In this document: positions 32,476-36,421 of the stretch, piece after piece
How positions within the stretch are numbered: the first letter of the stretch is position 1
How the letters are laid out: each line of letters begins with the position of its first letter
Source: an uncultured Rhodobiaceae bacterium
GTDB lineage: Bacteria; Pseudomonadota; Alphaproteobacteria; RS24
Length of the DNA: 64,000 nucleotides
Reading direction: 5' to 3'
NCBI GenBank assembly: GCA_937876775.1
Contig: CALEFA010000070.1
Span: forward strand, 62,001 to 126,000
The notes under the pieces: generated by a model
What the model was told of the DNA's origin: nothing
The model's database searches: none
Seen by the model: only the letters and a program-made list of their open reading frames with translations
Translations under genes and position numbers: made by a program

Positions 32476-33321
32476 ATGAACACAGTCGTGGATCACATTA
32501 TTCTTGCCGTCAATGACCTTGCTCAGGCCACCGCAGATTATGCCTTAATGCTTGGCCGCGCCCCCAGTTGGCAAGGCACACACCCTGATTACGGAAGTGC
32601 TAACACACTGTTTCGTTTGGATAATACCTATATAGAATTGCTTGCTGCCGACGGCCAAGGCTGGGCTGGCGATATGGTGCGCGGGCATATTGCGGCGCAT
32701 GGGGAAAGTCTCACAGCGGTGATTTTCGGCGTTGAAGATATTGACGCATTTGCCAGCCATGCGCGCCAGCAAGGGCTGGAGGTCACTGACCCGCAAGCTG
32801 GCCATGGTGTTGATGTGAACACCGGTGCGAGGCGCTCTTGGCGCAATGTACATTGGGATCGCCAACTGGCACGCGGCATTTTCAGTTTTGCCATTCAGCA
32901 CGATGACCCGACTGCGCTGGCCATAGCGGCGCCGACGGGCGAAGGGCATATGACGGCGGTTGATCATATTGTTGTGCAAACCAATGATGCGGCGGCGGCG
33001 AAGAAATTTTACGGCCAACAAATGGGCGTGCGATTGGCGCTGGAACAATCCAAGCCAGAGTGGGGCGGCGATATGTTGTTTTTCCGCTGCAATCATATGA
33101 CCATTGAGGTTATCGCCACGCAAAAACACAGCTCAGACGAAGACAAGCTCTGGGGCTTGGCGCTAAAAACCGATGATATTGATGCCACCCACGCGCGCCT
33201 CAAACAGGCCGGCGTCAACGTGTCTGATATTCGCGATGGCCGCAAAGCCGGTACGCGCGTGTGCACGGTGAAATCGCATTGTATGGATGTGCCAACTCTG
33301 ATTATCGGTTTGGTTGATTAA
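32476..33321 (+). CDS. VOC-superfamily protein with two glyoxalase-like domains
   Basis: A 281-residue protein with two tandem betaalphabetabetabeta units: residues about 3-140 (VDHIILAVNDLAQATADY) and about 157-281 (AVDHIVVQTNDAAAAKKFYGQQMG). The first resembles Glyoxalase_3/DUF3-type domains and the second the usual VOC fold. Metal-ligand histidines and glutamates may be H7/E54 and H159/E208-like positions, but this cannot be assigned firmly. Members include dioxygenases, isomerases and resistance proteins; no substrate can be named. Its stop codon overlaps the convergent sua5 stop. Confidence 0.78.
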   Translation: MNTVVDHIILAVNDLAQATADYALMLGRAPSWQGTHPDYGSANTLFRLDNTYIELLAADGQGWAGDMVRGHIAAHGESLTAVIFGVEDIDAFASHARQQGLEVTDPQAGHGVDVNTGARRSWRNVHWDRQLARGIFSFAIQHDDPTALAIAAPTGEGHMTAVDHIVVQTNDAAAAKKFYGQQMGVRLALEQSKPEWGGDMLFFRCNHMTIEVIATQKHSSDEDKLWGLALKTDDIDATHARLKQAGVNVSDIRDGRKAGTRVCTVKSHCMDVPTLIIGLVD

Positions 33322-34268
33322 GCCGCCGCTCGCGTTAGCCGGTCATTAATCGCTTCGCCTAATCCGACCCTTGGTATCGGCATAATCGCCAATCGTTTAT
33401 TCTCGGCCAAGGCAATGGCGTCATATTTGTGCAATTGAACAAACAATTGGCTGGCGGCCTCGACGAGATTGCCGCTCGGACTCAAATTGGCTACCACAGA
33501 AGGCGGCGCATCGGGGCCAAACCCTAGCAGCAAGCATTCATCCTGTGGCTCTGTCACATTGATCAGCAAACCGGATTTCGGCGCATAATGCCGTGCCAAA
33601 CGACCTGGCGCCAGTTTGGCTTCGTTGTCGTCACCCTCGGGCACATCGACCAAAGCAAAGCCAAGACAGGCCTCAATATCGGCCCGCGCAATGCCGCCAC
33701 TGCGTAACAGAACTGGCTCCGCATCAAAGCAGCCAATAATTGTCGACTCGAGGCCAATCTGCGCCGCACCGCCGTCTAAAACATCAATATCAGGCAGCAT
33801 ATCTGCGACATGAGCGGCCGTGCTTGGGCTTAGCCGACCTGACGGATTGGCACTTGGTGCGGCTAAGGGACGACCGACCAGATGCAATAATTGTTGTGCC
33901 ACTGGATGTGCCGGACAACGCAAAGCAATCGTGTCGAGGCCGGCACAGGCCAATCGGTCAACCGGGCAAGCAGCGGTGCGCGGTACCACAAGGGTCAGCG
34001 GGCCAGGCCAAAATGCCGCCGCCAATTTTTCGGCCATATCATTAAACTGACCGAGCTGGCGGGCCATTGGCAAATCGACCACATGGCTAATCAGCGGATT
34101 GAAATCAGGCCTCGATTTGGTGGCAAAAATGGCGGCAATGGCGCGGCCATTGGTGGCGTCGGCAGCCAGCCCGTAGACTGTTTCGGTCGGCAGGCCTATT
34201 AAGTGGCCGTCGAGAATCCGGTCACGGCAAGCAGACAGATTGTCGACGCTCGGCAACAGGACAGACAT
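33318..34268 (-). CDS. sua5: L-threonylcarbamoyladenylate synthase (Sua5/YrdC family)
   Basis: A 316-residue enzyme using threonine, bicarbonate and ATP to form threonylcarbamoyl-AMP for the t6A modification of ANN-decoding tRNAs. The YrdC domain (residues about 10-200) has GLPTETVYGLAADA, KSRPDFNPLI (KxR...SxN site) and APSANPSGRLSPS. About 110 C-terminal residues form the Sua5-type extra domain. Starts right after the SDR stop on the same strand. The essential partner TsaD is not in the window. Confidence 0.94.
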   Translation of the reverse strand: MSVLLPSVDNLSACRDRILDGHLIGLPTETVYGLAADATNGRAIAAIFATKSRPDFNPLISHVVDLPMARQLGQFNDMAEKLAAAFWPGPLTLVVPRTAACPVDRLACAGLDTIALRCPAHPVAQQLLHLVGRPLAAPSANPSGRLSPSTAAHVADMLPDIDVLDGGAAQIGLESTIIGCFDAEPVLLRSGGIARADIEACLGFALVDVPEGDDNEAKLAPGRLARHYAPKSGLLINVTEPQDECLLLGFGPDAPPSVVANLSPSGNLVEAASQLFVQLHKYDAIALAENKRLAIMPIPRVGLGEAINDRLTRAAA

Positions 34269-35261
34269 TTAACTGTTTTTGGCCGTCGGTTTTATACGAA
34301 CCACTTTTTTCGCCACCGGCTTTTTCGCGGCAGGTTTTTTCACGGCAGGTTTTTTCACGACAGGTTTTTTCACGACAGGTTTTTTCGTAGCTGGTTTCTT
34401 GCTGGCCGGTTGAGCCGTTTTGGCCTGCGGCGCTTGGTCGGACGCTTTAACAACGCGATTGCGGGTGCCGCGGCCTGAAAATTTGCTCATTAGATTTTCA
34501 GGCATGATTTTAATGAAACTGGTCAGCAGGCGATAAATCCAGCCATTGACAATAACCGGTCCCTTGCCATTCTCGACCGCACGATGGGCATCGTCGACCA
34601 CGCGTGGACCTTCCAGCCAAACAAAATTCGGTAGTTTATTCATTGCGTTGCGATTGCCGGCCACATCGTGAAACTCGCTCCATGTGAAGCCCGGGCAAAG
34701 CGCAATCACATGCACCCCATGTTCTTTATATTCCAACGCTAAGCTTTGGCTGAGGCGCATGACAAAGGCTTTGATAGGGCTGTATAAAGTGCCGCCCTTA
34801 GTGCCGGGCAGGAAGGCCGCAACTGAGGCGACGTTTACAATGCGGCCATAGCCGCGCGCAGCCATTTGCGGGGCAAAAATATGGCAGAATTCGGTCACCG
34901 CGGTCGCCATCACCTGAATCATATCGCTTTGCGCTCGCCAAGCCGCTTGGTCAAAAAGACCGGGCACTGAATAGCCTGCATTATTCACCAAATAGTCAAT
35001 TTGAATGCGTTTCTTTTTCAACGTGGCGGCCAATTGAGCCGGCGCGTCTGCTTCTACCAAATCGGCTGTCAGCACGGTGACTTTGACGCCAAAAGCGGCA
35101 GTTAATTCGCTGGCCAAGGCTTCAAGGCGGTCTGTGCGACGGGCAGTTAAAACGAGGTCATAATCGCGGGCCGCCAAATAGCGGGCATAATCGCGCCCGA
35201 TACCTGCTGACGCGCCGGTGATAAGCGCCGTAAACCTATTATTTTTGTTTGAACTGGTCAT
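34269..35261 (-). CDS. SDR oxidoreductase with C-terminal Lys/Pro/Ala repeat tail
   Basis: A 330-residue protein. Residues about 8-265 form a classical SDR domain: ITGASAGIGRDYAR, NNAGYSVPG and active-site YSPIK (Tyr-x3-Lys) are intact. The last about 55 residues are histone H1-like: pentapeptides of the KKPxV/KKPxA type with no acidic residues, and a tail near +15 in charge. No known SDR needs such a tail. ATG 35261 is chosen over an in-frame start at 35312, which runs into the opposite gene's promoter. Substrate is unknown. The tail could bind nucleic acid or membranes, or be a neutral slippage product. Confidence 0.85.
   Translation of the reverse strand: MTSSNKNNRFTALITGASAGIGRDYARYLAARDYDLVLTARRTDRLEALASELTAAFGVKVTVLTADLVEADAPAQLAATLKKKRIQIDYLVNNAGYSVPGLFDQAAWRAQSDMIQVMATAVTEFCHIFAPQMAARGYGRIVNVASVAAFLPGTKGGTLYSPIKAFVMRLSQSLALEYKEHGVHVIALCPGFTWSEFHDVAGNRNAMNKLPNFVWLEGPRVVDDAHRAVENGKGPVIVNGWIYRLLTSFIKIMPENLMSKFSGRGTRNRVVKASDQAPQAKTAQPASKKPATKKPVVKKPVVKKPAVKKPAAKKPVAKKVVRIKPTAKNS
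34331..34390. repeat. Tandem 15-bp repeat coding for the KKPxV tail
   Basis: Four back-to-back copies of CAGGTTTTTTCACGA or close variants (34331-34345, 34346-34360, 34361-34375, 34376-34390), with decayed copies on both sides. Unit length equals five codons, so changes in copy number keep frame. The T6 runs favour replication slippage. Confidence 0.9.
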
Positions 35262-35356: not shown

Positions 35357-36421
35357 ATGCCCGATGTCAAACAGAACGGCCAAGCGCATGGCTTGAGCTA
35401 CCCATTTGAGAGCTTGCCAGAAACCAATAATGTTATTGAGGTCGCGCCCGGGGTTTATTGGATACGCATGGTTCTTCCTTATTCTCTCGATCACATTAAT
35501 TTGTGGCTACTGGAAGATGACGATGGCTGGACGGTGGTTGATACATGCGTTGATATTGATAGTTCGCGCCAGCAATGGGAAAATCTATTCGTTGGTTTTA
35601 TGGGCGGTAAGCCGATTAAGAAAGTTATCGTCACACATATGCATCCAGACCATGTTGGCCTAGCCGGTTGGTTGGTGAAACGGTTTGACGCGCAATTTTA
35701 TATGTCGCGTACCGATTATTTAATGTGCCGCGCCATGGCCGCCGATACCGGTCGCAAAGCGCCTGAAGAAGCTATTCGGTTTTATAAAGCGGCCGGTTTT
35801 AATGATGAGGGTTTGGCCCGTTATCAAGCCCGCTTTGGCGGTTTTGGCGAGCATATCCACGAACTGCCGCAAGCCTATCGGCGCCTACAACAGGGGCAGG
35901 AATTAACCATTGGTGGGCGCATTTGGCGGGTTGAAGTTGGCTCTGGCCATGCGCCAGAACATATTTGCCTATACTGCGAAGAACTGAAATTACTCATATC
36001 CGGCGATCAGGTGATCCCACGGATTTCCTCAAATGTTTCCTTGTTTCCGACCGAGCCATTTGGCAATCCGCTGCAAGATTGGATTGATAGTTGCGCCCGT
36101 TTGGTTTCGGTTCTGCCATCTGACCTGCTGGTTTTGCCGGCTCATAATGAACCATTTTACGGCTTGCACGAGCGCCTCAATGCTTTGATCAATGGCCACG
36201 AAAAATCATTGGCGCGGCTAACCGAGGTTTGTGCTGAGCCGCATCGCGCTGTCGATAAAGAAGTTTTTTCGTGTTTGTTTAAGCGCCCCATTGGCCCGGA
36301 TGTGTTTTTCATGGCGACCGGTGAGAGCCTCTCACATCTAATGTGTCTGGTGCATCGCGGCGCGCTGAAAATGGACATTGACGATGGTGGTGTCGCGTAT
36401 TTTTCTAAAAAAGCCGCCTAG
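35357..36421 (+). CDS. Metallo-beta-lactamase-fold hydrolase
   Basis: A 354-residue protein with the HxHxDH metal motif in THMHPDHVGLAG, a second His in GSGHAPEHICLY, Asp in LLISGDQVIPRIS and the last His in VLPAHNEPFYG: a full binuclear zinc site. The layout is that of the hydroxyacylglutathione-hydrolase or lactonase-like subfamily; the C-terminal about 90 residues form a helical extension. ATG 35357 with upstream GGA is chosen over an in-frame ATG 81 bases earlier. Upstream of xseB; eight bases separate them. Substrate unknown; a thioesterase or lactonase is possible. Confidence 0.85.
   Translation: MPDVKQNGQAHGLSYPFESLPETNNVIEVAPGVYWIRMVLPYSLDHINLWLLEDDDGWTVVDTCVDIDSSRQQWENLFVGFMGGKPIKKVIVTHMHPDHVGLAGWLVKRFDAQFYMSRTDYLMCRAMAADTGRKAPEEAIRFYKAAGFNDEGLARYQARFGGFGEHIHELPQAYRRLQQGQELTIGGRIWRVEVGSGHAPEHICLYCEELKLLISGDQVIPRISSNVSLFPTEPFGNPLQDWIDSCARLVSVLPSDLLVLPAHNEPFYGLHERLNALINGHEKSLARLTEVCAEPHRAVDKEVFSCLFKRPIGPDVFFMATGESLSHLMCLVHRGALKMDIDDGGVAYFSKKAA

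Follow-up and report, generated by a model that had tools for sequence, protein, structure and literature searches.

The stretch of DNA analysed here, referred to below as the window, comprises 64,000 nucleotides from an uncultured Rhodobiaceae bacterium. It carries on its minus strand (34269-35261) a gene for a short-chain dehydrogenase (SDR) of 330 residues, in which a conserved core is followed by a lysine-rich C-terminal tail. The core, residues 1-269 (34455..35261, minus strand), was placed with a Pfam adh_short match (2e-42), an alignment of 39 homologues and an AF2 prediction. It has the signatures of a classical SDR (TGASAGIG, NNAG, S146, Y160xxxK164 and CPGFTWSEFHD); S146, Y160, K164 and the TGAS-x-GIG motif are invariant in the 39 aligned homologues, and the TGxxxGxG and NNAG motifs of the Rossmann fold are invariant or nearly so in the 39 sequences. 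The pLDDT of the AF2 prediction is mostly above 90 in the core, and the fold matches SDR structures (Foldseek). By the criteria of fold and catalytic motifs, the protein is a predicted classical short-chain dehydrogenase; the best NCBIfam model, for a mycolate reductase, scored 152 bits, far below its cut-off of 380. The nearest solved structures, 4bmv and 6zdz/6ze0 (PF00106), have the same Rossmann core and the same cofactor and catalytic motifs, with sequence matches at E 2.4e-31 (4bmv, also the best match by fold) and 3.5e-30 (6zdz). Their chains have 262 and 270 residues and the query match ends at residues 213/212, so that the 61-residue tail has no counterpart in them.

The tail (residues 270-330; 34272..34454, minus strand) is 61 residues long, with a net charge of +18, and is predicted to be disordered, the pLDDT being about 55-67 from residue 261 onwards, a low model confidence as would be expected of a disordered stretch. 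Within it lie six KKPxx pentapeptides (residues 288-317, 30 residues; 34311..34400, minus strand); KKP occurs six times within residues 282-330, a number reached by 0/20,000 shuffles of the same residues. The pentapeptides are encoded by a tandem array of 15-bp units (34305..34386, minus strand; 5.5 copies, 89% matches), with T6 tracts on the plus strand. The preliminary description of this locus, a catalytic SDR with an intact YxxxK motif and a basic low-complexity tail, is borne out by the Pfam match, the 39-sequence alignment and the tail charge, and its tandem 15-bp units with T6 tracts were recovered with a period of 15. Its estimate of about 55 residues of KKPxx was too high, as the six units account for only 30, although the basic extension as a whole does reach 61. 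In-frame variation in repeat number, also anticipated, was found between sister species: the protein has 330 residues in the window genome (G000) and 315 in G002, and the gap of 15 residues (3 x 15 bp) falls inside the repeat. The 15-bp array is itself young and arose by slippage.

The neighbouring genes are not part of the tail. The ATG of sua5/tsaC (threonylcarbamoyl-AMP synthase; 33318..34268, minus strand) directly follows the SDR stop codon, and a divergent gene for a metallo-beta-lactamase-fold protein (35357..36421, plus strand; start codon assigned by eye) lies on the other side. The former adjoins the SDR gene in 12 of 13 family stretches, the contig ending there in the 13th, and the latter is present in 13/13; given this conserved neighbourhood, the SDRs of these stretches are the same gene.

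Distribution of the tail among homologues

The family considered is the PS1 clade of marine alphaproteobacteria, represented by 28 genomes in the collection searched, in which its order is represented by the same 28. At a threshold of E <= 1e-50, an SDR orthologue was found in 14/28 genomes (3/3 in group g1, 6/6 in g3 and 5/5 in g4), and in 0/14 genomes of g2, g5 and g6. All 14 orthologues bear a basic extension, which is C-terminal in eight (genera g1 and g4) and N-terminal in six (genus g3). The C-terminal tails of g1 and g4 range from 16 to 81 residues, with a net charge of +10 to +18 in seven of them; the tail of G001 is short (16 residues, net +6). The N-terminal tails of g3 have 31-42 residues and a net charge of +11 to +16; at their C-terminus these proteins are short, with a net charge of 0 to +2. 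Absence of the tail from close relatives, which the preliminary description would have taken as the sign of a private slippage product, was not observed: with the tail on 14/14 family orthologues, that candidate is ruled out. Misassigned start codons are an unlikely source of the g3 tails, because in the g3 rows examined, which were checked for ATG codons, no in-frame ATG lies between the tail ATG and the core, and because purifying selection acts on the codons of the tail.

To look beyond the family, genome contigs were scanned, which left 80 loci, 76 of them non-family, and a search of 385 genomes of the class gave matches in 33, of which 29 were outside the family, with 26 loci read. The resulting 106 non-family rows were reduced to 101 when five were left out for lack of the motif by which the core was located. 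A C-terminal tail was found in 0/101 of these rows, which contain duplicates between collections (L100 and L187, for example, have the same ends); extensions there reach at most 21 residues and a net charge of at most +2. On the N-terminal side, among the 80 non-family rows counted, L024 has eight lysines among the 45 residues that precede the match and the others have at most five, and no tail was found by eye in 26 further non-family rows. Among the homologues examined, the tail is restricted to the family. L024 (genome G033) is a more distant SDR, at 36% identity, in which a lysine-rich stretch at the N-terminus lies between two potential start codons; it may be an independent case of a tail and is not an orthologue.

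The homologue of Parvibaculum sp. CPC32 (L075) is tailless and has metallo-beta-lactamase, sua5 and glyoxalase-like neighbours like those in the window. The function of sua5 was considered as an explanation of the tail and rejected, since the pair is syntenic in this tailless homologue too. With a phage origin in mind, viral contigs were scanned; six (L151-L156) match only residues 264-328, that is, they encode lysine-rich repeats. No publication describing such a tail on an SDR, on PntA or on CarD was found in a literature search of mainly open-access papers.

History and selection

A tree was built from 44 rows, after two of the five motif-lacking non-family rows had been dropped. The eight C-tailed rows form one clade (100/97) and the six N-tailed rows another (100/100); the two are sisters (joint clade 100/97), and the next branch is the tailless Parvibaculum homologue (97/92). 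On parsimony, the simplest history would be two gains, one at each end, as one gain with a later shift to the opposite end costs more steps. The CarD, trigger factor and PntA genes of the family served as a control: their tails stay N-terminal in CarD (8 genes) and C-terminal in trigger factor (10) and PntA (4). Each of these tails keeps to one end in the genes examined and the SDR tail does not, so that end-switching is particular to the SDR among the proteins compared.

Purifying selection on the tail is clear in two of the three lineages tested. In g3, the N-terminal tail has a pN/pS of 0.19 (single pairs 0.10-0.24) and the core 0.08; the tail value, pooled over 10 non-independent pairs from five sequences (L017 was left out for its different length), is descriptive, as the pairs share history. 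Between G000 and G002, pN/pS is 0.13 over 46 codons of the C-terminal tail outside the variable units, and 0.06 in the core. Fisher tests, made on rounded counts, gave 2e-7, 7e-6 and 5e-7. The C-terminal tails of g4 give a pooled pN/pS of 0.57 (0.25-0.80) on an uncertain alignment, and in these tails composition appears to be kept more than sequence. Selection is therefore not uniform, given the fast g4 tails and the short tail of G001.

Lysine-rich tails on other proteins

The same kind of KKPA/KKPV tail is found in the same genomes on CarD, trigger factor, ribosomal protein L21 and the transhydrogenase subunit PntA. In the window genome, a degenerate KK(P/A) pattern gave 18 matches, against three for a reversed control; they fall on L21, CarD, trigger factor, the SDR and one short frame. 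Names were checked with Pfam on one representative each of CarD, trigger factor, L21, PntA and a Rieske ring hydroxylase of G007. In the latter (L173), a lysine-rich tail forms the C-terminus and the N-terminus is basic. CarD of the window genome (L054:1447-2232, contig C20) bears a KKPxx tail of some 85 residues at its N-terminus and lies beside ferredoxin-like and sigma factor-like genes, the names of these neighbours having been assigned by eye. Acidic repeats were also encountered: a frame resembling ribosomal protein S16 (L224, in G042; named by eye) ends in APAEE-type repeats, and a similar acidic frame is present in G023 (L221).

PntA was found in 24/28 genomes, and 23 rows were read (L247-L270; the reading missed G007). 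A C-terminal lysine-rich tail with a net charge of +11 to +20 is present in 18 of the 23 (three in g3, five in g4 and ten in g5); four have none (three in g1, one in g2), and one row, that of G011, was masked. PntA is tailless in the window's genus while the SDR there is tailed, so the tails mark no fixed set of enzymes.

A probe for HC2, a histone H1-like nucleoprotein (PF07382), gave matches in 18 of the 25 genomes searched. The SDR tail resembles HC2 in residue composition and gives a weak match over residues 282-327, but its score (21.3 bits) is below the Pfam cut-off of 40, and membership of that family is rejected. Tails of this type had been regarded as usually belonging to nucleoid or DNA-binding proteins. 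This view is not supported as it was put, given the HC2 score and the tails on PntA and one Rieske oxygenase; since the carriers include CarD (transcription), trigger factor and L21 (ribosome) as well as PntA, the tails are not a mark of DNA-binding proteins alone.

Possible roles of the tail and its known counterparts

The explanation preferred here, at a probability of roughly 0.5, is that the tail is a selected electrostatic tether, independent of the end that bears it, which binds the SDR to a polyanion, most likely nucleic acid. The tethering, its target and the benefit to the cell are the parts that we infer. By its charge alone, a disordered polycation would keep an SDR that is in other respects an ordinary NAD(P)-dependent enzyme attached to a polyanion of the cell; if only charge and flexibility matter, the tail could work from either end and its length would be free to drift by 15-bp slippage. 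The occurrence of tails at different ends in sister genera suggests a selected tether rather than a random slip. The target could be nucleoid DNA, or ribosomal or other RNA. Nucleic acid is put first because most of the other tail carriers work on DNA, RNA polymerase or ribosomes, and because peptides of the KPAA-repeat type bind DNA in vitro, according to PMC9239181. The uneven selection, the HC2 score and the absence of the SDR gene from g2, g5 and g6 speak against this reading.

The tail of PntA, a subunit of a membrane complex, fits a nucleic-acid target badly, and is one of the points that would favour a membrane anchor, in which the tail would act with an amphipathic helix close to where the core ends and strengthen the hold of the SDR on anionic phospholipids. 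PntA bears this kind of tail in g3, g4 and g5, residues 241-254 of the SDR have a hydrophobic moment of 0.62 and a mean hydrophobicity of 0.36, and the Foldseek matches of the SDR include the HSD17B13 group, which are lipid-droplet enzymes. However, residues 241-254 are outscored as an amphipathic stretch by 218-231, a segment comparable to them is present in tailless homologues, and CarD, trigger factor and L21, which are not membrane proteins, carry the same tails. Such an anchor is unlikely.

By analogy with proposals for AlgP and for lysine polyphosphate modification, the lysines might instead bind polyphosphate non-covalently, and so place or regulate the SDR on polyphosphate granules. 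Ppk1 is present in 26/28 family genomes, the two without it being 56% and 73% complete, but PPK2 was found in 0/28. The window SDR tail has eight lysines in 20 residues and the tails as a whole 5-9 in 20, compared with the nine in 20 of proteins positive for lysine polyphosphate modification in PMC12077175. Those positives also have four consecutive lysines, whereas runs in the SDR tails do not exceed two (a single run of three, in two rows, is apparently in the core), and in the same work a negative result was obtained for a protein containing seven lysines. The PASK polyphosphate motif is a poly-acidic, serine- and lysine-rich stretch, as named in PMC12345225, and the SDR tail, with one acidic residue in 270-330, does not have it. 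A polyphosphate target is quite unlikely.

The tail might also be an A-rich microsatellite that grew neutrally or almost so, or an extension that serves solubility in a generic way and has no binding partner. The young tandem array, the three-unit difference between sister species and the drift of the g4 tails (pN/pS 0.57) speak for such growth; the presence of the tail on 14/14 orthologues, the low pN/pS in g3 and, outside the variable units, between G000 and G002, and the gains at different ends in sister clades make this decidedly unlikely. Tethering to PHA granules, to which the closely similar KPAA-type tail of PhaF might point (PMC9239181), is so improbable as to be rejected, because PHA synthase was not found in the family (PhaC_N in 0/28 genomes, with a control search finding it in Caulobacter).

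If the selected electrostatic tether is real, the PS1 clade offers a natural swap experiment, in which the same type of polycation at opposite ends separates the effect of charge from that of position, and a simple test of enzyme organisation without compartments in small-genome marine bacteria. Metabolic enzymes would then join granule and nucleic-acid proteins as carriers of histone H1-like tails. It is conceivable, though improbable, that the lysine tail serves this clade as a portable tag for localising redox enzymes, PntA (which makes NADPH) and the SDR each being tagged from the available end, which would bring the supply and the use of cofactor together on a common polyanion.

The closest known tails are those of AlgP and PhaF of Pseudomonas, which, according to PMC9239181, are likewise disordered Lys/Pro/Ala repeats prone to changes in length; that of AlgP is described there as spacing polyphosphate granules. 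They belong to helical granule-associated proteins and are far longer (154 residues in the repeat region of AlgP), whereas the SDR tail is carried by a metabolic enzyme, is made of KKPxx units and occurs at either end. The SDR and the KPA-type tail are each of a known kind; what is new is their combination and the change of ends.
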